Shown: positions 6,001 to 34,090 of the stretch, one piece after another
Layout: the number at the start of each line of letters is the position of its first letter
Position numbering within the stretch: position 1 is the stretch's first letter
From: Opitutaceae bacterium
GTDB lineage: Bacteria; Verrucomicrobiota; Verrucomicrobiia; Opitutales; Opitutaceae
Direction: 5' to 3'
DNA length: 40,726 nucleotides
Assembly (NCBI GenBank): GCA_028280955.1
Contig: JANQKU010000173.1
Coordinates: forward strand, 1 to 40,726
Position numbers and translations under genes: made by a program
Notes under the pieces: model-generated
Told to the model about the DNA's origin: nothing
Database searches by the model: none
The model's input: the letters and a program-made list of their open reading frames with translations, nothing else

Positions 6001-9000
6001 TGATGGATCTTCCATCGCCTCTGGCCTTTCCGGGTTTGTGGATGGAGATAGTATCACGCAAAATCCTTGGATAACAACTGGACCTACGGCGACCATCAAA
6101 ACATCTGCGATTGCCAGTGTGGGGTCACGCAATGGACAGAATACATTTTTCAAAGGCAAAATAGTTGAACTCATTGTCTACGAACGCGAGTTGACCTCTA
6201 CAGAGCGGCGCGATGTCGAAAATTATTTATCCATTAAGTATGGGTTGGACTATGATTATGATTCCGATGGGCTCACCGATAATTGGGAGAGAACCCATTT
6301 TGGAAATCTCGATCAAGGCGCTTCCGGTGATTCGGATGGGGATGGTCTCACCAATCTGCAGGAATTCACACAAGGGCTCGATCCCAATCAATTTGATGAC
6401 TTGGAGGCACCTTCTACTCCGACAGGGCTGACGTCACCTTCACAGACTTCGACTACCATTAATCTGAGTTGGACGGCGTCCACTGACAATGTGGCTGTCA
6501 CGGATTACGAAGTCTATACCAATGGTTTCTTGGAATACAATGTTACGGTAACAGATGCGACAGCTGTTGTGACAGCTTTGAATCCGAGCACGACCTATAG
6601 CTTTATGGTCAAGGCAAAAGATGTCGCTGGAAATGTCTCCTCAGAAAGCAGCGCTATCAATGCGACGACAGCCTCTGCGGATGATTCGACAGCACCGACA
6701 GCTCCCACTAATCTTGCCTCGACTGCGGATGCCGATACAACCGTGGGTCTGGTTTGGGATGCCTCTACGGATGATGTGGGTGTCACCAGTTATGAAATCT
6801 ATGCTAACAGCACCCTGGTGGCCAGTGTTTCCGGGACTCTGACGGCTGCAGTGGTCATCGATTTAACACCCAACACGAGTTACAGCTTCACAGTTAAGGC
6901 AAAGGATGCATCGGGTAAAGAGTCGGCTGCCAGTAATTCCGTATCCGTGACTACGGAAACACAAACGACCGGGTCCATTCTTCGGGAAGAGTGGACGGGC
7001 CTCAGTGGCTCACTCGTTAGTGATATGACATCCAATCCCAATTTCCCGGACAATCCAACCTCTTCCGGCACGGTAACGCTTTTTGAAGGGCCCACAGATG
7101 TGATGGATAATTACGGATCCAGAATTATTGGCTATCTGCATCCTCCCACCACGGGACAATATACCTTCTGGATAGCCTCCGATGATAAGAGTGAGTTGTG
7201 GTTGTCTACTGATTCAACGGCTGAAAATAGAGTCAAGATTGCCTATGTCGAAGTTTGGTCTGACTCTCGCGAGTGGGATAAATTTCCGGCCCAGGAATCA
7301 GCAGCGATTACCTTAACAGCAGGAAAGAAGTACTTTATTGAAGCCATTCAAAAGGAAGCTACCGGCGGCGATAACCTTGCGGTTGCCTGGCAAGGCCCTG
7401 GAATTACTCAAGCCGTTATACCTGGCAGTGCGCTTTCTCTTCTTCCCACAGATGCAGATGGTCTGTCCGATGCTTGGGAACTCAAGTACTTCGGTGGCCT
7501 TGATCAGGGTGATTCGGGCGATCCGGATGGAGATAGTTTGACCAACCTGCAGGAATTTCAGGCTGGTTCCAATCCGGCGATCGACGAAGACACCACGCCC
7601 AAAACCCTTACGGGGCTAAAGTTATGGTTACGTGGCGATGCCGGTGTAGAAGGTCATTATAACGGCCCACTGACCAAATGGAAGGACCAGAGTGGGCAGG
7701 GAAATCATGCCACACAAACAAATGGTATCTATAAATTGGATGCTCCGATTGCGTCTGTGAACGGGAAACCCTTTGTTGGGTTTAACGGAGTGGATGATTA
7801 CCTTACTTTTTCCAATGTGCTCAGTGGAGCAACCGGTGGTGAAATGTTTGTGGTTCTACGCACATCCGTTACTTCCGGAACGGAACAACGATTAACCAAT
7901 TTGAGTGGTCGTTTAAAATATCCAAGGGCTGATGGCGATATAGAACATGATTTTGCCGATACGGGATCTGGCTATGTAATCGGGCAACCGGGAACGGATA
8001 TTACTCAACCACATCTCTATAACGCTGTTTCCAGCTCTGGAGAATGGGTGGCTCGAATGAATGGACGGGAATTGTTTCATAGTTATGAGAGTACCTTCAG
8101 TGGCGGTTCCAGTTCACCTTCCTTAGGCGCTGATATTTCCGGCGGTGGCCCTCAGCAGTTCTTTAATGGAGATGTGGCTGAGTTTATCGTCTATAGTCGT
8201 ACCCTGACAGATTCGGAACGCGAAACAATCGGCGCTTATCTGACGAAAAAATACAGTCTCTCGATTCCGATTCCTCCCGTTGTCGTTGGTTTGAAGGCTG
8301 CCGCGATCGGATCCCAGAGAATTGCTCTGGACTGGGAGCGGAAGGAAGTTTTGGGTGTTACCTATAAAATTGAGCGGAAAGTAAGTGCCGGATCCTGGAC
8401 GCAGATTGCTGAGGTCGTCGATCAAATAAGCTATGTGGATTCTGGCCTGACCGCTGCGACTTCTTACGAGTATCGGGTAACCGCTCGAACCTATGGAGGT
8501 GAAGCGGCTGTGAGTGATGTGGTAAGTGCTACAACCTTGCCGATTTCCTATGCAGATATTCCCAGCTCAGGGATGCAACTCTGGTATTCGCCGGAAACAC
8601 TCTCACTCGGTTCGAATGGACTGAATATATGGCGGGATTTGAGTGGCCAGGATAATCACGCAGTCCAGGAAACTATGGCCAATCGTCCGGATGCACCCAC
8701 TACGACTTTTAATGGCAAGCCTGTTGTCAGCTTTGACGGAACAGATGATAACTTTTTGATTCCGCATGTTCTGAACGGGGCGACTGCTGGAGAAATCTTT
8801 GTGGTTCTTCGGGCTACCTCTGCATCGGGAACCGAACGACGTCTCACCAATGTCAGTGGCATTCTCAAATACCCGATGAGTGACGGACAGTTGGCCCATA
8901 ATTTTGGTTCTACCACTAATTATGTGCTCGGCCAGCCCTTGATGGATATTACGCAACCTCGGGTTTATCATGCCCTGTCGACCAATGGACAGTGGGAGGC

Positions 9001-9541
9001 ACATCTGGATGGAGATGAGCTGCATGCCACCACCACTAATACTTTTGCGGCTAATGCGCCTTATTGGACCGGCAAGATCTATCTGGGGGCAGATGCCAGT
9101 GAAGACTATGGATATGCAGGGACATGGTTTGCCGGTGATGTGGCAGAGGTTATGATTTATAACCGAATCCTGAATACCTCTGAGCGACGCTCTTTGGACA
9201 GGTACTTTGCGGCCAAATATGGGTTGGATATTTATCCTTACAATGTTGCTTCACAGGATCCAACCGGAGATTTGGACGGAGATGGGATAAGCAATTCCGA
9301 TGAAGTGGATCTTTATGGGACGGACCCAACCTTAGTGGATTCGGATGAGGATGGTATGCCCGACGCATGGGAAATTCTCTGGGGTTTTGATCCCGTAGTG
9401 GACGATGCGTCTTCCGATCTGGACAGCGATGGCGTCAGTAATCTGAAGGAATTTCTCCAGCAACGAAATCCAACTAAAGGGGCCATCCCGGATGATGGCA
9501 GTCATGTCGATCTGCAGATCTATTCACCAAAGTCTCAATAA
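2..9541 (+). CDS. Giant LamG/FN3/DUF2341/PA14 surface protein (5' end outside window)
   Basis: The listed ORF starts at an internal ATG (74), but the frame is open back to base 2 (IEISGRQTSG...), so the gene begins outside the window. Residues counted from that ATG: end of a LamG domain (1-120); LamG (145-345); an FN3 domain interrupted by DUF2341 plus LamG (355-785); eight tandem FN3 units (787-1527); two near-copies of a LamG-like module starting LWLDPE, each followed by a thrombospondin-3-like DSDGL...DGDG segment (1532-2112); two FN3 (2110-2296); PA14 (2300-2456, GYLHPPTTGQYTFWIASDD); Ca-binding segment; LamG (2513-2731); FN3 (2734-2822); LamG (2830-3054); final DxDxDG repeats. These modules bind carbohydrate, protein or calcium, so an extracellular adhesin or matrix role is inferred. 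No sortase, PEP-CTERM or T9SS tail is evident at the C-terminus (YSPKSQ). The RHS gene follows after 15 bases, suggesting co-transcription. Secretion signal not visible. Confidence 0.9.
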   Translation: MEISGRQTSGSDALRINTTTSYDHMDGWIHVLASWDLATGSTHLYVSDVDDKTVVTAANANIDYTRTNYVIGANSSFGNKLEAKLSEFYFNTSEYLDFSVESNRRKFISADKIPVDLGANGSIPTGTQPIIYLHNEVPNWESNLGSGGNFTENGALVDGGADVPLATSSNAYIKDLVAWYDFDDATDSHGTYDLTPLGTPTYTGGYGIASDSSNAHWIQTSVDDAWGNADHDTTFVCRFRGYGSFVNGHYVYLSNGWKHSIRHRSDGLRAEVFDTWLNSGTTAVNGTWYLLVATYDASTGEMAVSVNDSAPVTVTATPNPSTGDLYLGGNNDARDVEIDYFGCFNRKLSAAEITWLYNSGGTRTYSEVLAEGTSDTENPSAPTNLITTGKTTTTVDLSWTASTDNVGVTGYNVYTNTGFPTAFADWDRRIQLTIAATEVGSTLTDFPVYFDLSQLPASFWANVKADGGDIRVTTSDGVTELPFEIVHIDTTAQVGEIHFKAGSISNSTDTDFYLYYDNAAASAYASTATYGSEAVWSDYGLVLNFAYMNPANIVDSSGNNTGITSTGSMSTGNAGGIEFGDNQGMTAPDNNSLDFSTAYTLYAWVDERIVDTGAFVTIAEKNWSDPKASPYASYSLGINTSDKLDCINVESSTIRYVRSSATIPTATELTMAVTYDNTTLRGYIDGVADGTKSVSGGAGNTVHSLSIGLDSDGNNDLRSRLHQLALSSQTRSADWLAARHSNHVTPNTFYSVGSEQSNYVLETNVTVTGTTATVTGLSESTSYNFVVKAKDAAGNISDPSNILSVTTNAAADTQAPTAPTNLVSTGDTATTVDLSWTASTDNVAVTGYDVYTDAVLETNVTVTGTTATVTGLSPNTSYDFTVKAKDAAGNISSVSNTANVTTAADTTAPSAPTGLSSTGNTATTVDLSWAASTDNVGVTGYDVYTDAVLETNVTVTGTTATVTGLSPNTNYSFTVKAKDAAGNVSAASSAVNVTTATDTTAPTAPTSLNSTGNTVTTVDLSWTAATDNVGVTGYDVYTNTVLETNVTITGTTATVTGLTPNTSYDFTVKAKDAAGNESAASNTANVTTVADTTAPSAPTGLNSTGDTTTTVDLSWTASTDDVAVTGYDVYTDGILETNMTILGTTAVVTNLSPLTSYSFTVKAKDAAGNVSGASNAVNVTTDADSTAPSAPSGLTSTANTVTTVDLSWTASVDNIGVTGYEVYTDGILETNVSITGTTAVVSGLSPSTSYLFTVKAKDAVGNTSSASSPLNVTTADDVTAPTAPSALSSTGSTVTTVDLSWTGSTDDVAVTGYNIYVDSVFQTNVSGPTATVTGLNPNTSYSFTVKATDAAENESAVSNAVPATTLADVTDPNAPTNVSVSSYTATSVNLSWDEATDDVAVTEYEVYTNGVLEINVSITGTTAVVTGLDPNTAYSFTVKAKDGAGNVSAASSGANATTSADTISPSTPANLNSTGKTSNTVDLSWDAATDNVAVTGYDVYRGTVLALSVSGTTATVTGLTPNTSYAFSVRAVDAAANVSNTSSPIVVTTEVHPSPDTITNLVLWLDPEVGITKDLSNKVSAWADQSINGDDAVQNTSGSQPVFVENALNGKPALSFDGTDDTLDLGQALDYERDQAITAFTVIIPDLTEDAGTVLSKMASDLRGQEYFFYGYNKPAFLVHLINSWPSNGFGVEYPSFTRRESYLLTASYDGSSAASGLSGFANGETITANAFVATGPTATIKTATSATIGSRGAYTNFFKGKIAEVIVYERELTVTERRDVENYLAIKYHLDYDFDSDGLRDNWERDHFGNLDQGASDDPDGDGVTNLQEITLGLDPNQFNVLETPQTVANLELWLDPETGITKDGSNQVSAWLDRSGQENDAVQVTSGSQPVLVENALNGKPALSFDGTNDYLDLAQALDYERDQAVTIMGVMMPDSPAQAGTVLSKMGTGDQGHDFFYQAVNLPGFRSHLINSWSSNALAVDYQISLEGAYHILTASYDGSSIASGLSGFVDGDSITQNPWITTGPTATIKTSAIASVGSRNGQNTFFKGKIVELIVYERELTSTERRDVENYLSIKYGLDYDYDSDGLTDNWERTHFGNLDQGASGDSDGDGLTNLQEFTQGLDPNQFDDLEAPSTPTGLTSPSQTSTTINLSWTASTDNVAVTDYEVYTNGFLEYNVTVTDATAVVTALNPSTTYSFMVKAKDVAGNVSSESSAINATTASADDSTAPTAPTNLASTADADTTVGLVWDASTDDVGVTSYEIYANSTLVASVSGTLTAAVVIDLTPNTSYSFTVKAKDASGKESAASNSVSVTTETQTTGSILREEWTGLSGSLVSDMTSNPNFPDNPTSSGTVTLFEGPTDVMDNYGSRIIGYLHPPTTGQYTFWIASDDKSELWLSTDSTAENRVKIAYVEVWSDSREWDKFPAQESAAITLTAGKKYFIEAIQKEATGGDNLAVAWQGPGITQAVIPGSALSLLPTDADGLSDAWELKYFGGLDQGDSGDPDGDSLTNLQEFQAGSNPAIDEDTTPKTLTGLKLWLRGDAGVEGHYNGPLTKWKDQSGQGNHATQTNGIYKLDAPIASVNGKPFVGFNGVDDYLTFSNVLSGATGGEMFVVLRTSVTSGTEQRLTNLSGRLKYPRADGDIEHDFADTGSGYVIGQPGTDITQPHLYNAVSSSGEWVARMNGRELFHSYESTFSGGSSSPSLGADISGGGPQQFFNGDVAEFIVYSRTLTDSERETIGAYLTKKYSLSIPIPPVVVGLKAAAIGSQRIALDWERKEVLGVTYKIERKVSAGSWTQIAEVVDQISYVDSGLTAATSYEYRVTARTYGGEAAVSDVVSATTLPISYADIPSSGMQLWYSPETLSLGSNGLNIWRDLSGQDNHAVQETMANRPDAPTTTFNGKPVVSFDGTDDNFLIPHVLNGATAGEIFVVLRATSASGTERRLTNVSGILKYPMSDGQLAHNFGSTTNYVLGQPLMDITQPRVYHALSTNGQWEAHLDGDELHATTTNTFAANAPYWTGKIYLGADASEDYGYAGTWFAGDVAEVMIYNRILNTSERRSLDRYFAAKYGLDIYPYNVASQDPTGDLDGDGISNSDEVDLYGTDPTLVDSDEDGMPDAWEILWGFDPVVDDASSDLDSDGVSNLKEFLQQRNPTKGAIPDDGSHVDLQIYSPKSQ
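1251..2280 (+). other. DUF2341-LamG module inserted inside an FN3 domain
   Basis: All other FN3 units in this protein read GY(D/E)VYT(D/N)-x-VLETNVT without a break. In the first unit the sequence reaches GYNVYTNTG and then runs into a complete DUF2341 domain (DWDRRIQLTI...DFPVYFDLS) plus LamG domain ending SVGSEQSN, after which VLETNVTVTGTTATVTGL resumes the FN3 strand pattern. About 1,030 bases are therefore inserted in frame at one loop. Boundaries are good to a few bases because only flanking homology defines them. Confidence 0.75.
2434..4655 (+). repeat. Tandem FN3-coding repeats (8 units, about 270-280 bp each)
   Basis: Eight successive FN3 units begin with Asp-x-x-(A/S)-P (DTQAPTAPTNL, DTTAPSAPTGL and so on) at roughly 2434, 2710, 2992, 3271, 3550, 3829, 4102 and 4381. 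Core strings such as TTVDLSWTASTDNVxVTGYDVYT and NTSYSFTVKAKDAAGN recur in every unit. The DNA is similar but not identical between units, as expected for an older array with recombination and drift rather than a very recent expansion. Confidence 0.85.
4669..6404 (+). repeat. Tandem duplication of a LamG plus TSP3-like module (period about 873 bp)
   Basis: The string ctctggctcgatccgga occurs at 4688 and again at 5561, and the two following stretches encode nearly parallel proteins: LWLDPE.GITKD.SN.VSAW, ALNGKPALSFDGT, ALDYERDQA, ASYDGSS.ASGLSGF, ERRDVENYL.IKY, NWER.HFGNLDQGAS and GLDPNQF. This is an in-frame tandem duplication of one LamG-like domain and its calcium-binding linker. It can be told apart from the more diverged LamG modules elsewhere in the protein. 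Confidence 0.85.
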
Positions 9542-9556
9542 TTTACCTTTATCATC

Positions 9557-12500
9557 ATGCATACGAAACCTTCTTTTTCTCAACTACTAATTACCACAGC
9601 TTTGATGGGAAGTATCGTGGTGGGCTCCGGTAGTCTATCCGCTCAGCAATGTGCCACTCAGTCCATCTGGGCGAATCGCATTGTGGCTAAGAGCACCTAT
9701 CTTCCTAGAGAACTCAGTGGGTTTTTTAGTTATACAGATCCTGGCCCGGGTGTTGTCCCTACGAAATATAAAACAGAGACCTGGTCCGGCACTGGCCGTG
9801 AAGATCGCATTCACAGTGGAGGTTCTTATTGGGCAACGCATACATTGACCGGAAGCTGGGTCTTTAGTGCGACTGATTTCACAGATAGTTCCACTAAGAA
9901 AATTGTGTCTTCCGTGTATCGATATGCAGATGAGTCCACTACTGTTGCTGAACTCACTGAACAGAGACGATCTTGGCCTCCTCTCGGACCAATCACATCC
10001 CCGCTTTGGCCCCCGATAGAGAACATTTCGGCGACAGAGCATTCTCCTACCGGAGGGCGTTATCCTCCTGATCCTAACGGTGAAGGTACCTATATTGTAG
10101 ACAATTTTGGTCGTGGGTGGTGGACCGGTACGGATTATTTGGAAGGATTGTCCGATGAATTTACGGAGCAAGAGGCGATTGATAGGGCAGAAAATTTTGC
10201 GACTCTGGGATCCTCCAGACTTTCCTTTGCCAATGATTTCAGTGGAGAATGGAGTGAGACGAATAGAACCGATCCGGTGACATTTCATGCGCAACGGGTA
10301 GAGTTTAAAGCCGAATTTGATCAGACAAAGACAGGCTGTGCGGGTGATTACACGATTTATTATCATTATTATAAGTGGGCAATGGGCAGCGCTAAACCGA
10401 GTAGCCCCAACTATGTGGAAACCGGATCACTTTCCATTGAGCCAGGAGAACCTCTGCGTGCTCCGGCATCAGGGTGGCATGAAAGTCCGATGGAGATTGG
10501 GATGAACTATGAGATTGCCAAGGTCGAACTGATGCCTGCCCCGAATTGCCCCTTCACTCCCGGAACGGGAGGGGAGAATCTGAATAGCGTGGATGCCTGG
10601 TTTTCTCTGGGTAGCCTGACTGGTGGCGCTTCCGCAGGGATGTTGCAGGTTAAGAGCAGCCAGATAGATGAAACCCTTTATACGCCCGAGATGCTCATTT
10701 TTGGCGGACCGACCTCTGCAGAAGTCACTGTGATTCGGGATGACGATGACTTTATTCGTCAGGTGATCGCGCCGGAAGCGATTGCCGATGTGGTCACTGT
10801 GGATGCCGATACCTATGAGGTTCGGTTTTATCTTCCTTCGCAGTTAGGGACACAAGATCCAGTTACGCTGATTTATGCGCTCAGTGGCTCTCCCTATGTG
10901 ACTCACCGTATTGAAAATCCGGATGTATCACCAACGGCCAATCGACTTCAGATCACCGAAATCAAAGGCGCTCAAAGTGAGGCAACCATTTACACTCAAA
11001 CGGGGGGAGTGATGGAAATGTCCAAAGGCAATGGGCAGCGCGTTGAGACCGTTGAAGAGATTGGAACTGCCGTTACCAGGACGGTCAAGGATTCTCTGGG
11101 AACTGTCATTTCGACGGTGAAAGAGACTTACTCAGATTATTCATGGGGGCGGAGCTTAAGTATGATGGATGAGGGTGTTGGGCAAGATACCTTCCGAAGA
11201 ACCACTTATGAGTATTATGACAGTGGTCCGAGTTACTCACGTCTCAAAAAAAAGTATGATGAAAGCGGAGGTTGGGAAATCTATGAGTATGATGCGGAAG
11301 GGCGACTTACCAAAACGACATCACAATTTCTCAATACGTATTCTCATGAAACCGGAAATCGTGAGACTACCACTACCTATGGGACATTGGTCGATCAAGA
11401 TGGAGATGGAACAGAGGAAAAGCTGATTACCACGGTCCAATCACGGCAAAATCAAGAGATTGGGCGTTTCTACGATGTTTATTTTTCAAAGCTTGAAACA
11501 GTGGGTTCTTTCTCCGTGGCAACCCATTGGTCGATTCAGGCTACCTTGGCAGGAGCCGCCTGGGATGCGGCTACCAATTTGGTGACCAAGACGCGTGAAA
11601 TTGAAGGTGGAGACCTGGATGGCCGTTTGATCAGTCAACTCAATCCGGATCAAACGTTGACTACGGTGGATTATACCGTTGGCGTGAGCAGTATTACCTC
11701 TACCACTCGGACCGGCGCGCCCAATGTCACGCTCGATGCAGTTGTTGATGGCACGCGTACGGTAAAAGTGGAGACCTTGACAGGAAAATTATCCTCCAAT
11801 GATCAGTATGATATTGTTTCCGGTTTATTGCTCTCCTCAGAAATTGTCACACAGACAGATGATTTGGGACGTGCCACCCGGATTGATTATCTGGATGGCA
11901 CTTATGAAACACGATCCTATGCCTGTTGCGGTCTCGATTCCATAACAGATAGGCAGGGTATTACCACCACTTACACCTATGATGGCCTGGGGCAAGTGGA
12001 GACGGAAACGCGTGCTGGCATCACCACTCAATACAGCTACGATGCAGAAGGTCAGTTGCTGACAGTCAAACGAATTGGCAGTGACCTTTCCGAAATAACC
12101 CTGGAAACCCATGCTTACGATGTCCTGGGGAGGCGTATTTCCAGTAAGGATGCGATGAATCGTGAAACGACTTTCAATGAGAACAGGTCTGGTGTGAATA
12201 CCAAAACAACCAAAACACCCGACAATGGCACTATCATTGAAACCTTTGCCGAAGATGGGACTCTGATCGGTATTTCAGGAACGGCAGCCACTGCTCAGTT
12301 GGGATGGGGATATGGAGTGGATCTCAATGGCACCATCACCAATGAAGTTCGTATGGGTCCATCCGGAGAAACGACGGAATGGACAAAAACCTATACTGAT
12401 ATAGCGGGTCGTGTGTATAAAGTGGAGACGGCGGATGGCGCTTTCTCCGAGTATTTTTATAATAGTCTGGGGCAGTTGGTCAAGCAGGTAGATCCCGATG

Positions 12501-15500
12501 GTGTTACCACCTTGTTTGCTTACAATGCGAGAGGAGAGCAGGAGTATGTGGCAATTGATCTCAACCAGAATGGGCTCATTGATTTTTCCGGCACGGATCG
12601 AATTACCAAAACAGAACGCAGTGTGGTCACGGCTCATAGCACCACAGTGCAAAAAGTAACCACGACTCAATGGACCACCGATAATGTGGCAACGACCGAA
12701 GTGGTTTCGACCATTGAAAGTGATGTGGATGGAACCGAAGTCTGGCAAACGATTGGCGGATTAACCACTCACATCCAAACCAGTTATGGCGGTAGTGGAG
12801 CGCGTACAGAAACAACCACCGGACCGGATGGCACAGTACAAACTCGGCAATACCAGGATGATCGTTTGACCTCTGAAGTTATCTCAAATCCGGGAACGGG
12901 AACTCTTTCGTCTGTTTCCTACACCTACGATCCCCATGGTCGATTGGCCACCGCCACAGATCTTCGCAATGGAACGACCACTTACACCTATTACGATGAT
13001 GATCAACTCCATACTGTCATCACACCAGATCCGGACACCGGGCTTTCCGGAACCGGTTATGATGCGCAAACCACTATTTATGACTACGATACAGCCGGAC
13101 GTCTCTGGTATACCGCTCCTCCGGACAGTGGTGTGATTACCAATGAGTATTATCCGAACGGATTACTCAAAAAAACTGCGGGGACCCGGACCTACCCGGT
13201 GGAATACACCTATGATACCCAGGGCAGGCTCAAGACCCTGAAAACCTGGAAAGATTTCATTGGCGATACTGGCAGCTCCCTTACGACCTGGAATTATGAT
13301 ACACAGCGAGGTTGGTTGATCAGTAAACGCTATGAGGATAACCAGGGACCAAACTATACCTATTTCCCATCGGGTCGCTTGAAAACCCGCACCTGGGCAC
13401 GTGGAATTACTACCACCTATGGCTACGATAATGCCGGTGGATTGCTCACGGTTGCTTACTCAGATACGACGCCGGATGTCAGCTATAGTTATGATCGCCG
13501 TGGCAGGGTAAATACCTTCACCGATGCGGCCGGCGTTTTAACGCGCACCTACGATCTCTTAGGACAGCTCGATGACGAAAGTTATGCCGGCACGGGCGTA
13601 TTGACCGGGCAGGTGATTAACCGGGGGCAGGATGCCCTCTATCGCCTGAGCAGTGTCAGTATTCCTTCTGTTGTGACGGCCAGTTACAGCTATGATGCCG
13701 CTTCCCGTTTACAGACGGTCACGAATGGGAACCGTACCTCTACCTATGGTTATTTGGTCAATAGTACTCTGGTGGAGACGCTTACCCATGCGCAGTCGGC
13801 CAGTAATCGACTCATTACCACGAATGTCTTCGACAAATTGAACCGATTGGCTTCGATCAGTAACAGCTTGCCTGTTGTGCCTTCTACCTTGTCCCATACT
13901 TACGCTTATAACGATGCAAACCAACGGGTCAAAGCGACCCGGGAAGACAGTCGCTATTGGGAATATGGCTACGATAGCCTGGGGCAGGTGATCAATGCGG
14001 ATAAGTTTTTGGCCGATACCACTTTGATCAATGGACTCGATTTTGATTTCACCTATGATGATATCGGGAACCGTCAAACGGCTCTGCGTAATGGACGGAC
14101 CGCGGCCTATACCGCTAATGCCTTAAACCAATACGCCAACCGGACAGTGCCCGGTGCCATTGATGTGATCGGCACGGCCAATGAAAATGCTTCGATTACA
14201 GTGAATGATGGTTCCGGCACTCGCCAAACTGAAGCATTCCTTAATACGGCTCCTCTTGATAACAGCAGCTCGGCTGTGTGGAATGAATTGGAAATCGTGG
14301 GAGTTCGCAACAATGCCGGAGCTGGTGGAGAAGATGCGGTGGTGGAAGAAACGAGGAACGTTTTCCTCCCGCAGACACCGGAAAACTATACCTATGATGT
14401 GGATGGCAATCTGCTCAGTGATGGACGCTGGATCTACACCTGGGATGGGGAGAATCGTCTCATCGTGATGGAAACACCAACAGCGTTGGTCACACCGAAT
14501 GGGCCTCTCCCAGTGATCGAGCGCAAAAAACTAGAATTCACCTACGATGCCCAGAGCCGCCGGATCGAAAAGAAAGTTTCTGTCTGGAATGATGGAACCT
14601 CGAGCTACCAACTGTCCACGCATACCCTCTTTCTCTACGATGGTTGGAATCTTTTAGCCGAACTGGATGCGCTCAACAGCAATGCGACTCTGCGCAGCTA
14701 TACTTGGGGTCTTGACCTCAGTGGTTCAGCGCAAGGCGCTGGCGGGGTCGGTGGATTGCTTTCCCTGACGACTTCGAGTGAAAGTTATTTTATCAGTTAT
14801 GACGGCAACGGTAACGTCATCGGATTGGTTGATGCCACCACCGGAACGCTTTCCGCGGAATACGAGTATGGACCCTTTGGTGAAGTGGTCAAATCAACGG
14901 GAACCATGGCTACGGCAAATCTCTTCCAGTTCTCGACTAAATATAGGGATGATGAAACCGGCTTACTTTATTACGGGTATCGGTATTATAATTCGGATAT
15001 AGGGAGATGGTTGAATAGAGATCCAATTGATGAAAATGGAGGATTAAATGTGTATGGATTTACCAGGAATAATGGAGTAGATAATTGGGATCTTTTAGGA
15101 TTATCCTCATGTTCTTCAGCGAGTGATGTTGGTAATATTGATCTTCAATTAGAAGATGTAGAAATAATTAACGGAACACAAAATTTTGATGGAACCCCTG
15201 AAGATCGCCTTAATGATCTTGCAAAGAAAGTCGCAAAAAAAGTAGGCAAAAAAGGCATAGCAGAAATTATTGAAACAGCAATAACTCAGACGAGTAGTTT
15301 GGTTAGTACTTATAAGGCTCGTATAATTATTAAATACAGATGTTGTGAATGTGTTTGTGATGATGACTCAAAAAAATGTTCTGGTGAAGTTCAATGGTCT
15401 TCCTCGTCGGTTTCATCTGCAGAGGTTACAGATAGGTACGCGCAGGGTTCTAACATCATTACTGGAGCTAGTGCGTTACGACGATTGACGAAAAAAACGC

Positions 15501-15532
15501 GTGATTTATTGGTTAGAACAGCTTGTAAGTAA
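9557..15532 (+). CDS. Secreted RHS/YD-repeat protein with variable C-terminal tip
   Basis: A 1991-residue protein with an N-terminal signal peptide (about residues 1-29, ending SLSA before QQC). A poorly conserved N-terminal region of about 550 residues precedes many YD repeats (YEYDAEGRLTKT, TYDGLGQVETETRAGITTQYSYDAEG and others). The RHS-associated core near residues 1740-1849 reads YGPFGEVV...YRDDETGLLYYGYRYYNSDIGRWLNRDPI...NVYGFTRNNGVDNWDLLGL. In known RHS proteins the YD repeats form a shell around a C-terminal toxin released after this core. The tip (1850-1991) has no domain I recognise. It has a Lys-rich stretch (KKVAKKVGKKGIAEI) and a Cys cluster (CCECVCDDDSKKC), so its activity is unknown. 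No clear Shine-Dalgarno precedes the ATG. Downstream exported genes are candidate immunity partners. Confidence 0.93.
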   Translation: MHTKPSFSQLLITTALMGSIVVGSGSLSAQQCATQSIWANRIVAKSTYLPRELSGFFSYTDPGPGVVPTKYKTETWSGTGREDRIHSGGSYWATHTLTGSWVFSATDFTDSSTKKIVSSVYRYADESTTVAELTEQRRSWPPLGPITSPLWPPIENISATEHSPTGGRYPPDPNGEGTYIVDNFGRGWWTGTDYLEGLSDEFTEQEAIDRAENFATLGSSRLSFANDFSGEWSETNRTDPVTFHAQRVEFKAEFDQTKTGCAGDYTIYYHYYKWAMGSAKPSSPNYVETGSLSIEPGEPLRAPASGWHESPMEIGMNYEIAKVELMPAPNCPFTPGTGGENLNSVDAWFSLGSLTGGASAGMLQVKSSQIDETLYTPEMLIFGGPTSAEVTVIRDDDDFIRQVIAPEAIADVVTVDADTYEVRFYLPSQLGTQDPVTLIYALSGSPYVTHRIENPDVSPTANRLQITEIKGAQSEATIYTQTGGVMEMSKGNGQRVETVEEIGTAVTRTVKDSLGTVISTVKETYSDYSWGRSLSMMDEGVGQDTFRRTTYEYYDSGPSYSRLKKKYDESGGWEIYEYDAEGRLTKTTSQFLNTYSHETGNRETTTTYGTLVDQDGDGTEEKLITTVQSRQNQEIGRFYDVYFSKLETVGSFSVATHWSIQATLAGAAWDAATNLVTKTREIEGGDLDGRLISQLNPDQTLTTVDYTVGVSSITSTTRTGAPNVTLDAVVDGTRTVKVETLTGKLSSNDQYDIVSGLLLSSEIVTQTDDLGRATRIDYLDGTYETRSYACCGLDSITDRQGITTTYTYDGLGQVETETRAGITTQYSYDAEGQLLTVKRIGSDLSEITLETHAYDVLGRRISSKDAMNRETTFNENRSGVNTKTTKTPDNGTIIETFAEDGTLIGISGTAATAQLGWGYGVDLNGTITNEVRMGPSGETTEWTKTYTDIAGRVYKVETADGAFSEYFYNSLGQLVKQVDPDGVTTLFAYNARGEQEYVAIDLNQNGLIDFSGTDRITKTERSVVTAHSTTVQKVTTTQWTTDNVATTEVVSTIESDVDGTEVWQTIGGLTTHIQTSYGGSGARTETTTGPDGTVQTRQYQDDRLTSEVISNPGTGTLSSVSYTYDPHGRLATATDLRNGTTTYTYYDDDQLHTVITPDPDTGLSGTGYDAQTTIYDYDTAGRLWYTAPPDSGVITNEYYPNGLLKKTAGTRTYPVEYTYDTQGRLKTLKTWKDFIGDTGSSLTTWNYDTQRGWLISKRYEDNQGPNYTYFPSGRLKTRTWARGITTTYGYDNAGGLLTVAYSDTTPDVSYSYDRRGRVNTFTDAAGVLTRTYDLLGQLDDESYAGTGVLTGQVINRGQDALYRLSSVSIPSVVTASYSYDAASRLQTVTNGNRTSTYGYLVNSTLVETLTHAQSASNRLITTNVFDKLNRLASISNSLPVVPSTLSHTYAYNDANQRVKATREDSRYWEYGYDSLGQVINADKFLADTTLINGLDFDFTYDDIGNRQTALRNGRTAAYTANALNQYANRTVPGAIDVIGTANENASITVNDGSGTRQTEAFLNTAPLDNSSSAVWNELEIVGVRNNAGAGGEDAVVEETRNVFLPQTPENYTYDVDGNLLSDGRWIYTWDGENRLIVMETPTALVTPNGPLPVIERKKLEFTYDAQSRRIEKKVSVWNDGTSSYQLSTHTLFLYDGWNLLAELDALNSNATLRSYTWGLDLSGSAQGAGGVGGLLSLTTSSESYFISYDGNGNVIGLVDATTGTLSAEYEYGPFGEVVKSTGTMATANLFQFSTKYRDDETGLLYYGYRYYNSDIGRWLNRDPIDENGGLNVYGFTRNNGVDNWDLLGLSSCSSASDVGNIDLQLEDVEIINGTQNFDGTPEDRLNDLAKKVAKKVGKKGIAEIIETAITQTSSLVSTYKARIIIKYRCCECVCDDDSKKCSGEVQWSSSSVSSAEVTDRYAQGSNIITGASALRRLTKKTRDLLVRTACK
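15104..15529 (+). other. RHS variable tip (candidate toxin domain)
   Basis: This segment encodes the 142 residues after the DLLGL end of the RHS core. Base composition shifts to AT-rich from about 14940, inside the conserved core, and stays AT-rich through the following genes. Visible traits are an acidic start (DIDLQLEDVEI-like), a basic helix-like stretch, six cysteines (five of them in CCECVCDDDSKKC) and a basic C-terminus (RRLTKKTRDLLVRTACK). I cannot assign a nuclease, deaminase or pore-forming family by eye. Confidence 0.6.
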
Positions 15533-20932: not shown

Positions 20933-23900
20933 CTGAAAAAGACGTCTGCAACGGTTTGGTGGTCCCTTGTTAAGTGGGCCTTTAGAGGAATCCTCATCGG
21001 GATTGCTTTTACTGTTATTGGCCTAGCGACTCTTCCGTTTTGGCTGGGCTCTGCCATTCGCATTTTTGCGCCGGAAGATAGTGTCGTCTATGAACGATAT
21101 GAGCGGATGGGCTATGGGCGTTTTGCCCTGACCAATGTTGTGGCAACAACCCCGCAGGCTTCGGTGATGATTGATCGAGTCGAAGCCTATTCTCCCGTGG
21201 TCTGGCTGTGGAAGGCTGTATGGGAAGATGTGTCGCAATCTTTTGTGGCTGCGGGAGCGGTTCGAGTGGATCTGCTGGAATCTCAAGATCCACCGAAGGA
21301 ATTTGCAGGAGAAGTTCCTGAAAATCTATTAGAGGTGATCGAAATGATCGAAGAGTCCTCCGGGTTAGTCGCGTCTTGGATGCCTTTTGCCACAGTCGAT
21401 GTCGTTCAGGCAAAGATGAATGATCAGGCAATTGTCTTGCGTGAAATAACCTGGCGAGAATCACGTTTTTCACTGATAGTGTCTCATGATCGATTTTCTG
21501 AATACGAATGGGATCTGGTGGCCGATCTGAACAGTGAAGAGATGGTTGTTCGATTTGTTTCCGAGGAAGCGGGACTGATGATTGAAAACAAGCTCAGCGC
21601 CGGTGAGGAACAGGCAGACTTATCGGTGCGAATCCTTTATAAGGAAAATCTTTTGGAAGCAGTCGCACTTTTTGGAAGAGAGGGTTGGCTACCTTTTGAA
21701 GCGAGTTGGCAGGGGATCGATTGGTCGGTGGCATCATCGGATTTTGGGAAGGAGGGGCCGTATGCGAGATATGATTTTACGCTCTCGGGTGACTGGAAAG
21801 AGGGTGTTTATCGTAACCATATCAGTGGCGAAACGATACCAATAGAGGAAGATGTCTATGGTTTGCCGTCGGTGAGTTTTGAGAGTTCTCTTTCAGGTAA
21901 TTTAGAGAGGTTGGATATCGAAACGTTTCGTCTTTCTTCTCCGGGATTGAAAGCGCAGGCGGTAGAGCCGGTGGGGATTGAATTGGCCAATCGTCAACTG
22001 ACGGGTGAAATGAAATGGGATATTGACCTGGATCTGACGCTTTTGCAGATCGAAGCTCTAGCAGGCTCTCTTTCCGGTGAAGCGTTTTTGAGCGCTGATG
22101 AAGCAGGAGCATCAGTCGGGAGGTTTGTCCTGCAAGGTACGGATGTTTCTTATGAAGATTTAACGGCGGAGGTCTTTGCGATCGAGGCCACTTTGCAATG
22201 GCCCAAATTGCGTATTGAAACGATGGATATTGTATTGGATACGGGTTCCAAGGTATTGGCAAAGGGGGCTGCTGATCTGGCAAATCGTCAAATGGCCCCG
22301 AGTTCTTTGCAGATTGTTTTTTCGGAAGAGGTTTTGAAAAGGTTCATGCCTGAGGGAGTTGCGGCCCAAGAGGTCAAGGCTTCCGTCGAAGTTGAAGGTC
22401 CCTGGGAGTCGTTGACCCATTCGGGTTCCGCTGAAGTCGGTTTGTTTGAAACGAAGTCACTGAAACCGTTATCGGTTGCGGTCGAATGGCAGGGTGAAGG
22501 CACGTCGTTTGAGCGGCTTCAAGTGGAGGCAGGCAATGGGGAAGCCGGTCTAGAAGCCTTGCTTAAGGGGTCTTTGCTGGATGAGCGGATCGAGGTGGGT
22601 ATGGAGACGTTCGAGCTTTCCAATGTCCAGGGAATCTTGGCATCACTAGATTCTCCAGTGGCGATGACTTTTTTATTAGGCGATTTGATTGAGGGAGCAG
22701 TCGAAGGGTTTTCTCTTTCCGGAGAAGAGGCTCAGGTAGTTTTGGCAACGGAATTTGCCTATCCGGAAAAAGCGAATTTTTCTATCGAGATCAAAGGATT
22801 AAATACGGAGGAGTGGGTTGATCCCTGGTTGAAAACACCTTCGCCAAAGGCTCAATTGAATGAGATGAAGATGTTGGCTCATTGGGATGAGGGTCCGATC
22901 GAGGCGGAGGCGATGTTGGATGGCACAGTCGAGCTGAATGAGAGTGAACTGCTCTTTAAAGGAGAGCTTTCCTTGCTCAAAAAATCGATACGATTGAATG
23001 CTTTTGCGGTTTCTGATCTGGAGGGTGAACTTATGAAGATGGAAGGCGAGCTGCCCTACCAGGTGGATCTTTCCACGACGGACTTTTTGGTAGCCGATAA
23101 GGGAGGGAAATTGGCTCTTTCGATAGAGACGAGTGATAGCCCGACGATTATTTCTCTGGTCGATGTGGTTCATCCGTTGGGGGTAGAATCGCTCAATGCG
23201 CAGGTGAATCTTGAGGGGACACTCGAGAACCCTCAGGGTGATTTGGTCTTCAGCATCCTGACAAAGAAGGGTGAAGGTGAACATGGAGTGCCTCCGACGA
23301 GAGTGAAGGCGAAGGCTCAAATCGATGGAAGAACGTTGCGGATAAGCGAGATGGTGGCGGAGGTTTTGGAGGATAGGTTCGAGGCATCGCTGGAAGTTGT
23401 TTGGCCCGAGGAGGCATTGAAACTGGCTGCTCTGGAGCCGGTAGAGGTTGATTGGCTCTCAACGGAAGTGGCTTTTGTCGCGCCGAAAACGAAGTTGGCA
23501 CCCATAGCGTTCTTCGCTCCGCAGGTGCTTGCCCCGAGTGGTGAATTTGAAGCCGAGTTGAATGGAAATTTAGTGAAAGGGTTCAACGGATTTGTTACTC
23601 TAGAGAATCTGAATACACGGCCGATTTTTCCATTTGGATCCTTCCGTGACATTCAGACCCGATTGGAATTCGGTCAAACGATCGCGACGTTGCAGGCGTT
23701 CAAGGGTAATATTGGCCGGGAGCCGATGACAATGCAGGGGCAGATCGACTTTCGGGATATAGATGACTTGGTCTTTGCCTTCACCATGAAGGGTGAAAAT
23801 TTGCCAATGGTAAGGAAGGCGGGTCTTTTGCTTCGCTCGGATTTGGATGTCGTCGTCAGTAAAGAACTCGAAAGTGAAGCAAAAATCACAGGCACGATTG

Positions 23901-24694
23901 AGATGCGGGAGGGTCTTTTTTTGATCGATACAAGGGTTTTAACGGCTTCGGGCGGTGGAGGTCAGTCGGCGAAATCACGACCTCCTTATTTTTCGGTGGA
24001 AGTGGAGCCGTTTGCGGATTGGGAATTGGACATCGCAGTGAAGGGAGAGCGATTTATGAGGCTGCGAACGCCGGCCGCTACGGGAGCCCTTTCCATTGAT
24101 ATGAACCTGAAAGGAACATTGGAGGAGCCGTTAGCGATCGGGAGGGTCGAATTCGATGAGGGAAATTTGATGTTTCCGTTTGCCTCGTTTAATTTGACAG
24201 AGGGTTTGGTAGATATCCGTATTGAAGACCCTTATACGCCGATGATCAGTTTGCTGGGAGAAGCGCGACGCTTTCGCTATGATCTTGGCATCGAAATTAC
24301 GGGTTCGGCTTTTGATCCGAGTGTTCGTTTTACCTCTAGTCCACCCTTGTCGTCCGAGCAGATTTTGTTGATGGTGATGACTGGGGATGTGCCCGATTCG
24401 AATTTTACCTATAGCACAACGCAACGCGCTTCTAAGATAGGCACTTACTTGAGCCAGGGTCTTTTGTCATCAGGTAGTGAAGGTGGTTTGGGAAGCCGAT
24501 TCAGTATAGAGTCGGGCCAGAATTTATCGGAACAAGGGAAGGAAACTCTGGAGGTAGAGTTTAAGCTGGATGAGAGGTTTCAATTGTTGGGGGAATACGA
24601 TGAGTATGATGAGTGGAATGGAGGCGTTCGCTGGCGGATATTGAGACGACAACCGAAGGAGAGGGCACCCAGTGAGGAGGAGGAATCGAAATGA
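20933..24694 (+). CDS. tamB: TamB-like translocation and assembly module protein (AsmA/DUF490)
   Basis: The track starts at ATG 21107, but the frame is open 58 codons further upstream and encodes LKKTSATVWWSLVKWAFRGILIGIAFTVIGLATLPFWLGSAIRIFAPEDSVVYERYERM. That is a basic segment and membrane anchor as expected for TamB. No ATG, GTG or TTG exists in that stretch, so CTG 20933 is proposed as start. From there the product has about 1253 residues, in the usual TamB range. Long beta-strand repeats follow, with a C-terminal DUF490 domain (FDPSVRFTSSPPLSSEQILLMVMTGDVPDS and LGSRFSIESGQN). TamB spans the periplasm and helps lipid transport and outer-membrane protein insertion with TamA. Its stop overlaps the TamA-like start by ATGA, implying translational coupling. 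Confidence 0.88.
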   Translation: MKKTSATVWWSLVKWAFRGILIGIAFTVIGLATLPFWLGSAIRIFAPEDSVVYERYERMGYGRFALTNVVATTPQASVMIDRVEAYSPVVWLWKAVWEDVSQSFVAAGAVRVDLLESQDPPKEFAGEVPENLLEVIEMIEESSGLVASWMPFATVDVVQAKMNDQAIVLREITWRESRFSLIVSHDRFSEYEWDLVADLNSEEMVVRFVSEEAGLMIENKLSAGEEQADLSVRILYKENLLEAVALFGREGWLPFEASWQGIDWSVASSDFGKEGPYARYDFTLSGDWKEGVYRNHISGETIPIEEDVYGLPSVSFESSLSGNLERLDIETFRLSSPGLKAQAVEPVGIELANRQLTGEMKWDIDLDLTLLQIEALAGSLSGEAFLSADEAGASVGRFVLQGTDVSYEDLTAEVFAIEATLQWPKLRIETMDIVLDTGSKVLAKGAADLANRQMAPSSLQIVFSEEVLKRFMPEGVAAQEVKASVEVEGPWESLTHSGSAEVGLFETKSLKPLSVAVEWQGEGTSFERLQVEAGNGEAGLEALLKGSLLDERIEVGMETFELSNVQGILASLDSPVAMTFLLGDLIEGAVEGFSLSGEEAQVVLATEFAYPEKANFSIEIKGLNTEEWVDPWLKTPSPKAQLNEMKMLAHWDEGPIEAEAMLDGTVELNESELLFKGELSLLKKSIRLNAFAVSDLEGELMKMEGELPYQVDLSTTDFLVADKGGKLALSIETSDSPTIISLVDVVHPLGVESLNAQVNLEGTLENPQGDLVFSILTKKGEGEHGVPPTRVKAKAQIDGRTLRISEMVAEVLEDRFEASLEVVWPEEALKLAALEPVEVDWLSTEVAFVAPKTKLAPIAFFAPQVLAPSGEFEAELNGNLVKGFNGFVTLENLNTRPIFPFGSFRDIQTRLEFGQTIATLQAFKGNIGREPMTMQGQIDFRDIDDLVFAFTMKGENLPMVRKAGLLLRSDLDVVVSKELESEAKITGTIEMREGLFLIDTRVLTASGGGGQSAKSRPPYFSVEVEPFADWELDIAVKGERFMRLRTPAATGALSIDMNLKGTLEEPLAIGRVEFDEGNLMFPFASFNLTEGLVDIRIEDPYTPMISLLGEARRFRYDLGIEITGSAFDPSVRFTSSPPLSSEQILLMVMTGDVPDSNFTYSTTQRASKIGTYLSQGLLSSGSEGGLGSRFSIESGQNLSEQGKETLEVEFKLDERFQLLGEYDEYDEWNGGVRWRILRRQPKERAPSEEEESK

Positions 24695-26814
24695 GATCGA
24701 CTTCGGCTAAAAAGATGTGGCAGCGTTGTCTCCTGGTCTTTTGTGTGATTTTGGTCTTTTCGGGGTCGGGTTTCGAATTGGAGGCGAAGGAAGAACCGGA
24801 GCGAGCGAAGTGGTCCGTCAAAAAGGGAGGATTTTTTAAGAACCGCAGTCTGAAGAAGCAGCTCGATCTGATTTTTAATGAAGAGAAGGCCGAGTTTACG
24901 GCATCGGATATTGAAGATGCTGCTTTGATTTTGATTTCTTACCTGGAGACGGAAGGTTACCTGGCGGCAAAAACGCTGGCGACAATTACTTTGGTGGATG
25001 GAACGGAAAAAACAGTGGAATGGGACAGTCATTTTGATGTTTTTTTGCCGCGTGATACGTCTGCGACCTTTGTTCGTTTCGACTTAATTGAAGGGCCTGG
25101 TTTCTATTACCAGGAGTTGGAGATAGTTGGGAATCAGGTTTTGGCAGTAGAGGAGGTAGAGGCATTCTTTTTTTCAGAGCCGTTCCTGTTTCAGAGTGAG
25201 AAGGCTCGTTTGTTTACGCCGGGGTTGTTGCAAAGAGGTGGTGGAAATCTGCAAGCGCATTTGAATCATTTGGGGTATAAGGATGCTCTGGTCAAAACTG
25301 AGGTCTTGAGTATGGACAAAGAGACCGGAGCCTGTCTGGCGCAGGTGGTAATCGATGAAGGGGTCAAGCATTACGTAAAAGATGTCACAGTCGTTATCAA
25401 AGGAGACCCTCCAAAGTCGTCGGTAGATGTATCGCCCTACTTGGGACAACCTTATAATCGTTTCATTGCTCAGGATATTGCAAAAGAGTTGCGCAACCGT
25501 TTTTTTGAAGTTGGTTATCCGGATACAGTTATCAAGTCATCGCTAAAGGTTGGGCCTGAATCAAAAAAGGGAAAGGGTGTTGAAATATCGATTGAAGTTG
25601 AGCCAGGGGTTCAGGTCTTTGTCAGTTCCATCACCTTTGTAGGATCTGAGGAGACAAAACCTTCGTTGATTAGATCGCGGCTGAAACTGAATGAAGGTGA
25701 TCCATTGAACCCTTCGCTTTTAGAGGATTCGCGACTGAACTTGTCGCGCTTGGGAGTGTTTGATCGGGTGACTTACAACCTGGAACCTGTTGAGGAGAAG
25801 CTCCGATCGGTTGAGTTTAGTTTGACCGAGCGAACAACATGGAATGTGGACATGCTTTTTGGGTGGGGAAGCTATGAGCAGCTACGCGGTGGGTTTGTGG
25901 TGGAAAAGATGAATATTTTTGGACTGGGGCATCGAGCCCGATTGAAGACGATCGCTTCTATGAAGAGCTATTTGGGTGAAGTGGGTTATCTCGTTCCCGA
26001 AATTTTTGGAACCCCTACTTCGTTGTCCGTGAAGGTCTTTGCGTTAGAACGAGAAGAGATCGCTTTTGTGCGAGAGGACTTCGGATTGAATGTAGGTTTG
26101 TCGCGCCAATTCGAAAGAATGGGATTGGATGTGGATACGGTTTACTCCCTAAAAAATCTGGATTTGGGATTTAATAATCTGGGCGATGAGTTGGCCAATC
26201 AGGAAAGTGCGATGGTAGGGAGCCTTGAATTACGTTTGGGAAGAGATCGGCGTGACAGCGCCTTAAACCCAAGAGAGGGTTACCGGATTTTCAGTCGGAC
26301 GGAGTGGGCGGCCAAACCACTCGGTGGTGAAGTGGATTATCAAAGGGCGGAATTTGGTGCTTCGATGCACGGTGAGATATCGCGTGGTCTCTTCTGGCAT
26401 GCAGGATTGACGCATGGAGTGATTGGGTCTTTTGCGGAAGCAGAGAAGCAGGTGCCGGCGAGCGTGCTTTTTTATCCGGGTGGCGAGAGTTCGATTCGAG
26501 GGTACCAGAGAACGGAAGCTGCGCCAAGGGACACGGAGGGCAAGTTCATCGGCGCTCGTGCCTACACGCTCTTGAATCTCGAACTCGAGCAGTTGTTGTC
26601 CGATTCATTATCACTTGTTTTGTTTGTCGATGGATTGGGGACAGCATCGACTATCGAGAAGTATCCTTATAACGATACCTTAGCTTCTGTGGGATTGGGT
26701 CTTCGTTTTAAAACATTTATGGGTCCGATCCGCTTTGAGTACGGACATAATCTCAATCCACGTGCTTTGGATCCGGAGGGAACCTTCCATTTTTCGTTAG
26801 GCTATCCGTTTTAG
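24691..26814 (+). CDS. tamA: TamA/BamA-family outer membrane assembly protein (POTRA plus Omp85 barrel)
   Basis: A 707-residue Omp85 protein. The N-terminus MRSTSAKKMWQRCLLVFCVILVFSGSGFELEAKEE is a signal peptide. POTRA-like repeats follow to about residue 375 (FYYQELEIVGNQVL, VFVSSITFVGSEETKPSLIRSRLKLNEGDPLNPSLLEDSRLNLSRLGVFDRV). The barrel begins near NVDMLFGWGSYEQLRGG. It carries the loop-6 signature GGESSIRGYQRTEAAPRD and ends FHFSLGYPF with a terminal Phe, the usual outer-membrane beta-signal. Paired with TamB in the same operon, TamA is the most likely identity; BamA-like is the alternative. Here tamB precedes tamA, the reverse of the classic proteobacterial order. Start by ATGA overlap with the TamB stop. 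Confidence 0.9.
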   Translation: MRSTSAKKMWQRCLLVFCVILVFSGSGFELEAKEEPERAKWSVKKGGFFKNRSLKKQLDLIFNEEKAEFTASDIEDAALILISYLETEGYLAAKTLATITLVDGTEKTVEWDSHFDVFLPRDTSATFVRFDLIEGPGFYYQELEIVGNQVLAVEEVEAFFFSEPFLFQSEKARLFTPGLLQRGGGNLQAHLNHLGYKDALVKTEVLSMDKETGACLAQVVIDEGVKHYVKDVTVVIKGDPPKSSVDVSPYLGQPYNRFIAQDIAKELRNRFFEVGYPDTVIKSSLKVGPESKKGKGVEISIEVEPGVQVFVSSITFVGSEETKPSLIRSRLKLNEGDPLNPSLLEDSRLNLSRLGVFDRVTYNLEPVEEKLRSVEFSLTERTTWNVDMLFGWGSYEQLRGGFVVEKMNIFGLGHRARLKTIASMKSYLGEVGYLVPEIFGTPTSLSVKVFALEREEIAFVREDFGLNVGLSRQFERMGLDVDTVYSLKNLDLGFNNLGDELANQESAMVGSLELRLGRDRRDSALNPREGYRIFSRTEWAAKPLGGEVDYQRAEFGASMHGEISRGLFWHAGLTHGVIGSFAEAEKQVPASVLFYPGGESSIRGYQRTEAAPRDTEGKFIGARAYTLLNLELEQLLSDSLSLVLFVDGLGTASTIEKYPYNDTLASVGLGLRFKTFMGPIRFEYGHNLNPRALDPEGTFHFSLGYPF

Positions 26815-32632: not shown

Positions 32633-34090
32633 CTAGCGCCAGTCTGGAAGATGACGGGTTAATTCGGCATCTCTTTCTTCTTTTGCCAGGACTATTTTGG
32701 CCCGAATGATTTCACGTGTTTCGTCTTCTTTATCTTTCAAGTCTTGCTGCAGTTCTTCAATCTGCCGTTCATACGCATGTATTTTTTCCTGAATCTTTGG
32801 ATGAAGATCAGCGAGTCGGGCTTCGAGTTCTTGGACCTGTGCAGTGGCAGAGGATTCATTGGAAAGCATCTGGCGTCGCTGAGAGACGAGGCCAACGACA
32901 AGTTTGTCTTTCAGTTGACGGGCCAGATGAGGAAGCAGGCGTTCACGCAGGTCTCCATTGGGATTGAGAGGCTCCTCAGATAGAGCGAGCTGTGAGCCGG
33001 CGGGGTGTCTCCTGTGACGGCGAGTCATCGAGAAAACAAGGAAAATGGAAAGAAGAACAGTGGCAGCGATCGCACTCCAAAACCATTTGGGGTCGATCGC
33101 TTCGGAGAAGGGTCCAGCGGGAATGGGCGCGGGTTGAGTGATGGTTAAAATGACAGGTTTGAGTTTTTTGAGATGGTCTATCGCAGCGATGGTTTGTAGC
33201 GAAACCAGATCGCCTTTGGCGATAATGAGTTGCCCGGGGTCATAGCGCATAGCGTTCCAGAGATCGGCTATTTCCAATGCGTGTTGCTGGTAGGTCAATT
33301 CTTCTTCAAACTGCAAGGTGGGCTCGACGAGAGACGAAATGAATTCTTTGAACTGCCATCTTTCCTGGGTGAATTTATCGGAGATAGCCGTTTTGATTTG
33401 TGAGAGGGGGATGAGATCGCTTTTGCCGAAGTATTCACCGGAATCCAATTCCAGAGCGCTGAGTTCCTGGTCGGAATGAAGTGGCGTAACTACGAGAATC
33501 CGGGGGGAACTGGCCAGTCGTTCTGAAAGCTCGCTATCATCGATGATGTGGCGTTTTCCGATAGCTTCGGCAATGGCGAACTTGTATTGCATCAGAACAC
33601 GATTTCCGGAATCGCCTGTTCCCCAGGTTTTAGCCAGCGCGGGCGTAATGACAAACTCACTCTGGGTGGGTTTAAATCTTTTCTGGAAGAGTGCGAATTG
33701 GCTGGAGCTCAGCTCCATCTTGTCGAGTTTGCTGTGACCAAAGTTACTTTCCAGTTCCTTGATAAACTCGTCACGCGCCCGGAGGAAAGCAGTCGTCAAT
33801 TTTGATTCAACTTTCTCTTTGGTTGCAGGATGATAGGAATAAATGGGAGCGAGTTGTCCCAGTCTTTCTTCACGTTCGGTTTCTGTTCTTTCAACATCCA
33901 GAACGACTAGCTGAACAGGCGTATAAAGATCGGCAATGGCAGTATCTCCAGGGGAGTAGTCGGGGATGTCCGGCCAGACAATTTCCTCCATACCCGACAG
34001 GCTAGCACCACTAATGAAGAGCAGGGCGCAGAAAAAATACCGTTGTAAAGGGGTCAATCGGATGGAGTTTTGAGCAGGTGTGAAGATCAC
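32633..34090 (-). CDS. Membrane protein with 7TM-HDED-like sensor domain and coiled-coil tail, no HD domain
   Basis: A 485-residue protein with an N-terminal membrane or signal segment (LQRYFFCALLFISGASLSG). The region 38-330 resembles the extracellular 7TM-HDED domain of PgpH-type cyclic-di-AMP phosphodiesterases: YSPGDTAIADLYTPVQLVVLDVERTETEREERLGQLAPIYSYHPATKEKVE at the start and YDPGQLIIAKGDLVSLQTIAAIDHLKKL at the end are the hallmarks. In PgpH a seven-helix domain and an HD phosphohydrolase follow. Here there is one membrane helix (WFWSAIAATVLLSIFLVFSM) and then a charged cytoplasmic region with a long coiled coil (QVQELEARLADLHPKIQEKIHAYERQIEELQQDLKDKEDETREI). No HD motif is present. 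Function unknown; a sensor or scaffold is inferred. Confidence 0.75.
   Translation of the reverse strand: MIFTPAQNSIRLTPLQRYFFCALLFISGASLSGMEEIVWPDIPDYSPGDTAIADLYTPVQLVVLDVERTETEREERLGQLAPIYSYHPATKEKVESKLTTAFLRARDEFIKELESNFGHSKLDKMELSSSQFALFQKRFKPTQSEFVITPALAKTWGTGDSGNRVLMQYKFAIAEAIGKRHIIDDSELSERLASSPRILVVTPLHSDQELSALELDSGEYFGKSDLIPLSQIKTAISDKFTQERWQFKEFISSLVEPTLQFEEELTYQQHALEIADLWNAMRYDPGQLIIAKGDLVSLQTIAAIDHLKKLKPVILTITQPAPIPAGPFSEAIDPKWFWSAIAATVLLSIFLVFSMTRRHRRHPAGSQLALSEEPLNPNGDLRERLLPHLARQLKDKLVVGLVSQRRQMLSNESSATAQVQELEARLADLHPKIQEKIHAYERQIEELQQDLKDKEDETREIIRAKIVLAKEERDAELTRHLPDWR

Follow-up and report, generated by a model that had tools for sequence, protein, structure and literature searches.

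The extracellular N-terminal domain of PgpH, which these proteins carry together with seven helices and an HD domain (PMC10243994; PMC5575661), is still described as being of unknown function (PMC10243994). A single-pass relative of it was suspected in a stretch of 40,726 nucleotides from an Opitutaceae bacterium, referred to here at its full length as the window. The original prediction saw a 7TM-HDED sensor without the 7TM-HD output domain, in which a single membrane helix with a coiled coil takes the place of seven helices and HD. It offered two readings, namely a partner, decoy or regulator of a c-di-AMP phosphodiesterase or a new receptor architecture, and as checks it suggested a PF07697 search with structure prediction, a look for a full PgpH elsewhere in the genome and a survey of relatives. 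What, then, does a PgpH-type head do on such a protein, and with what does it work? In the open-access papers that we searched, there was no description of an HDED domain without HD, nor of a pair like the one formed by this protein (c0) and the TPR protein discussed below (c1).

Architecture of the window gene

Residues 47–310 of c0 match PF07697 (7TMR-HDED) over profile positions 2–223 of 224 (E = 1.1e-11; 45.6 bits, cut-off 27.6). When a profile of 22 c0 family members was compared by hhalign to one of 15 PgpH extracellular domains from relatives, the two aligned over 254 columns with a probability of 97.7 and an E-value of 2.1e-12. In AlphaFold2 models, the c0 head and the head of a PgpH from a same-genus genome run through one and the same series of secondary structure elements (strand-helix-strand-long helix, helices, strand pair, two helices, strand-helix, strand pair, helix); the c0 model has a mean pLDDT of 79, with most of the head between 80 and 95. 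Sequence searches with c0 and with the PgpH head found no solved structure, and Foldseek with the c0 model found none of like fold, a point against the role that we favour below.

Hydropathy shows one transmembrane (TM) stretch in c0 and no seven-helix 7TM-7TMR_HD bundle, and neither c0 nor the six neighbouring proteins scanned gave a Pfam match to PF07698 (7TM) or to HD. The basic stretch TRRHRRH follows the TM helix, and the C-terminus should thus be cytoplasmic. The model places a long helix (381–453) and a second one (456–480) in the tail. NCBIfam had nothing for c0. Both structural claims of the original prediction, the likeness of the N-terminal part to the PgpH extracellular domain and the replacement of seven helices and HD by one helix and a coiled coil, are thus borne out by domain match, hydropathy and model. 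The parts of the gene are given in Table 1.

Table 1. Parts of the c0 gene and their positions in the window
Feature	Position	Strand	Details and evidence
Whole gene, single-pass membrane protein	32633..34090	(-)	485 aa, GTG start, frame intact
Probable signal sequence, residues about 12–33	33992..34057	(-)	Model helix 14–26 (low confidence); N-terminal hydrophobic stretch in orthologues
7TMR-HDED extracytoplasmic head, residues 47–310	33161..33952	(-)	PF07697; hhalign against PgpH heads; secondary-structure order
Single TM helix, residues 337–355	33026..33082	(-)	Hydropathy; helix 334–360 in AlphaFold2 model
Constant cytoplasmic tail, ~110 aa helix and coiled coil, residues 376–485	32633..32965	(-)	Alignments, model, presence on other heads

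PgpH itself was found elsewhere in the same genome, split by contig ends: the HDED part lies on contig C18, where the PF07697 match adjoins a PhoH-like ORF, and contig C239 has the rest of HDED with the seven-helix bundle and HD behind it. The genome also encodes a diadenylate cyclase. Since PgpH sits elsewhere, c0 is an extra protein and not a broken PgpH, and a frameshifted PgpH was rejected as a candidate, HD being absent from the scanned neighbours. It is hardly credible that c0 is what is left of a truncated PgpH, that it is a pseudogene or that the assembly created it. Its head is divergent, most PgpH copies scoring 77–129 bits with PF07697, but its frame is intact, its conserved tail is foreign to PgpH, it has orthologues in many genera and PgpH is separately present, and such conservation refutes this reading.

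A constant tail behind varied heads

A first search of contigs with the single c0 protein found no relative, and an alignment of the whole tail was too diverse as a contig query; a tighter alignment gave matches. Of 200 genomes sampled from the taxonomic family, 17 have whole-protein homologues of c0, and the named records with such homologues belong to Opitutaceae/Opitutia and to Verrucomicrobia subdivision 3. The c0 architecture is an old, conserved family in these class-level relatives, and its recurrence in many genera upholds the notion of a 7TM-HDED sensor without 7TM-HD output, and likewise that of a new receptor architecture. The last ~110 residues form a conserved helical module in the alignments (consensus ...QERIxAYExRIxELE..LAxxxEENRELIxAKI...), to which no known output domain (kinase, HAMP/MA, GGDEF or HD) was matched in Pfam or NCBIfam.

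A class-wide search with this module showed that the tail also stands behind heads other than HDED, and it is the tail, not the HDED head, that is the constant part of the family. The combination of HDED, one TM helix and tail is found outside Opitutaceae in genomes G239, G280, G317, G362, G384 and G452. Other one-TM members have heads that resemble Exo_endo_phos (EEP), GH5 cellulase or LamG domains, and a headless form consists of signal and TM only before the tail. Additionally, there are tail proteins without a TM helix, which have zinc-ribbon heads or, in one record, an FHA head. Outside the family, the tail was absent from a phylum sample of 289 genomes at E ≤ 1e-8. Weak tail matches (E from 1e-5 to 1e-3) in G310, G314, G382, G436 and G453 were discounted as generic coiled coil, in all but G382 after reading the sequences.

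Read by eye, none of the EEP heads retains all of the usual catalytic motifs (LQE has become LQQ or LQH, for instance, and GDFN has become GAFN or GSLN), and in the GH5-like head SPGG stands in place of the usual NEP. The loss of these motifs suggests that both kinds of head serve in binding rather than catalysis.

The exchange of heads can be followed on a tree of 40 c1 sequences, where at least 10 changes of the accompanying c0 head type are required (6 would be the minimum possible) yet the types cluster far better than when shuffled, so that swaps are real but not rampant. In genus g83, for instance, members with an HDED head, with zinc ribbons and with no head are interspersed on supported branches, and zinc-ribbon and HDED heads are sisters inside one genus with support of 98/88. 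The deep part of the tree is unsure, with long branches for G033 and G014.

Two loci show members in unusual states. At L166:4457-6294 there are two tail-type ORFs in tandem, one of which looks like a signal/TM form fused to a partial tail and a zinc ribbon and may link the membrane and zinc-ribbon types as an intermediate. A broken fragment of an HDED N-terminus (G033:C23:5277-5450), just upstream of an intact c0, is a decayed duplicate.

A TPR protein accompanies the tail

The protein c1 consists of a signal sequence, one TM helix, a conserved short juxtamembrane coil and about three C-terminal TPRs; NCBIfam gave only generic TPR similarity for it. At thresholds of E ≤ 2e-7 for c0 and E ≤ 1e-25 for c1, the tail protein and c1 were found in identical sets of genomes, 23 and 23 of the 286 of the class (Fisher p = 2e-34, a value that ignores relatedness). 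The two are on different contigs in 10 of these 23 genomes, among them G280, where c0 is at a contig end, and the fact that unlinked c0 and c1 travel together across many genera is a stronger argument than the Fisher p-values. Within the taxonomic family, c0 and c1 each occur in 17 of 200 genomes, 16 of which have both. The exceptions are G001, a 75% complete genome of a congener of the window genome, with c1 and no c0, and G030, where a c0-like sequence without c1 counts against our favoured explanation; of the two c0 copies in G030 (L048:2706-4157 and L047:4895-5923), one is interrupted by a stop and the other is cut off where its contig ends.

The c1 gene adjoins c0 in 36 of the 49 loci that were testable (non-redundant and with enough flanking sequence), convergently (tail-to-tail) in 33 and in tandem in 3. 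Several EEP-, GH5- and LamG-headed members lie apart from c1, which again speaks against the role proposed below, as does the window genome, where c0 (on contig C44) and c1 (G000:C74:5692-6765; 362 bits) are unlinked. The surroundings of the latter (L053:4138-7551) have the order MgtE-type gene, c1, c36, with no c0 between, and a c36-like ORF directly follows c1 in the congener G001. In the relative G033 the order is MgtE, c1, c0, c36 (L049:698-6388). With c0 between c1 and c36 in that relative, the gene order suggests that c0 left this place, and it appears to have relocated from there to the window. Both genes were kept although unlinked.

A second copy of the N-terminal half of c1, with signal, TM and juxtamembrane coil and no TPRs, occurs in genus g8 (L198, L199, L200, L201 and L202) at an unlinked place that is not beside c0.

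Possible roles of c0 and c1

The proposal that c0 is a partner, decoy or regulator of PgpH, with an HDED head that pairs with the PgpH head or competes for its ligand and so tunes c-di-AMP, is quite improbable. The two heads are homologous, and the window genome has both PgpH and a diadenylate cyclase. However, six HDED-headed members come from genomes that are 90–96% complete and have no second PF07697 match, five of them with a diadenylate cyclase. PgpH is probably absent from these six, so the HDED head does not need it, and most relatives that have PgpH lack c0. As a general role the proposal is further weakened by the constancy of the tail, and not the HDED head, in the family, and of c1 as the invariable companion. 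In all, c0 shares with PgpH and the other 7TMR-HD phosphodiesterases (PF07697-PF07698-HD) the homologous extracytoplasmic domain, and differs from them in having one TM helix instead of seven, no HD, an unrelated coiled-coil tail and a TPR partner, and in that its HDED-headed type also lives in genomes without PgpH.

The main rival is a structural scaffold, in which the heads would fasten the coiled coil and its TPR partner to polymers of the envelope, or to machinery for secretion or pili, with no signalling. We regard this as unlikely, if less so than the regulation of PgpH. Long coiled coils and TPRs are common in scaffolds, the heads include lectin-like (LamG) and glycanase-like domains, and in genus g83 the gene, with zinc-ribbon heads in two genomes and HDED in one, comes after a cluster of type II secretion genes and the gene of a small secreted protein. 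That neighbourhood turned up in a single genus, however, and the zinc-ribbon and FHA heads come without a membrane part, so that anchoring to the envelope cannot be the shared function.

We give about an even chance to c0 being a single-pass receptor or adaptor of the inner membrane, with a periplasmic HDED head and a coiled-coil tail that works with c1. The head homology, the one TM helix, the conserved tail, the head swapping and the exact co-occurrence with c1 are established, and for the topology, the sensing and a physical contact of c0 with c1 we infer the following. As a type I protein, c0 would hold its PgpH-type domain in the periplasm, where the head may bind a putative envelope ligand and so read the compartment. 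The coiled-coil tail would hand the state of the head on to c1 through a contact in the cytoplasm, presumably between two coils or between coil and TPRs, and the TPRs of c1 may dock a putative output.

The tail and its partner stay together while the head changes, even within a genus, which looks like an unrecognised sensing or adaptor system. Somewhat more tentatively, and at a little less than even chance, c0 and c1 could together make up the core of a two-protein system of Verrucomicrobiota, for signalling or as an adaptor, that is so far undescribed. Its constant tail and membrane-anchored TPR partner would serve heads that can be exchanged (HDED, inactive EEP and GH5 folds, LamG, FHA and zinc ribbon), and the PgpH head would act as a stand-alone sensor without c-di-AMP hydrolysis. 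Modular single-pass receptors of bacteria join a variable sensor head to a constant cytoplasmic module. The c0 family resembles them in its interchangeable heads, constant tail and constant partner, and differs in that its tail matches no known output domain in Pfam or NCBIfam and some of its members have no membrane part. A single-pass relative of the PgpH head with a clear partner also offers a simple handle on what HDED binds.

Neighbouring genes

In the window, c0 lies on contig C44 between lipoate ligase-like and RmlD-like genes, and its neighbours (these two and PNPOx-like, Cupin_5, ion channel and BNR repeat proteins) are all without HD or 7TM-HD. Farther away are a giant surface protein (positions 2-15532, + strand; >3179 aa, with ten fn3 stretches, LamG, PA14 and TSP3), after which comes an RHS-repeat protein (1991 aa), and a pair of TamB-like and Omp85/POTRA genes (21107-26814, + strand). 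In four other loci (L047, L049, L050 and L131) an HDOD-domain gene is near c0, which recalls HDOD and other HD-superfamily regulators; this gene is not conserved with the c0 family, however, and is not near the window gene.

None of c0, c1 and the small secreted protein c4 matched a PADLOC model of anti-phage defence. The last of these has about 150 aa and a C-terminal KSFLW; in genomes of subdivision 3 it is found immediately upstream of the tail protein (L116, L120, L124, L126, L153, L162, L166, and L121, L123 and L125 of genus g83). In g83, both c4 and the tail gene come after GspF, pseudopilins and GspK.
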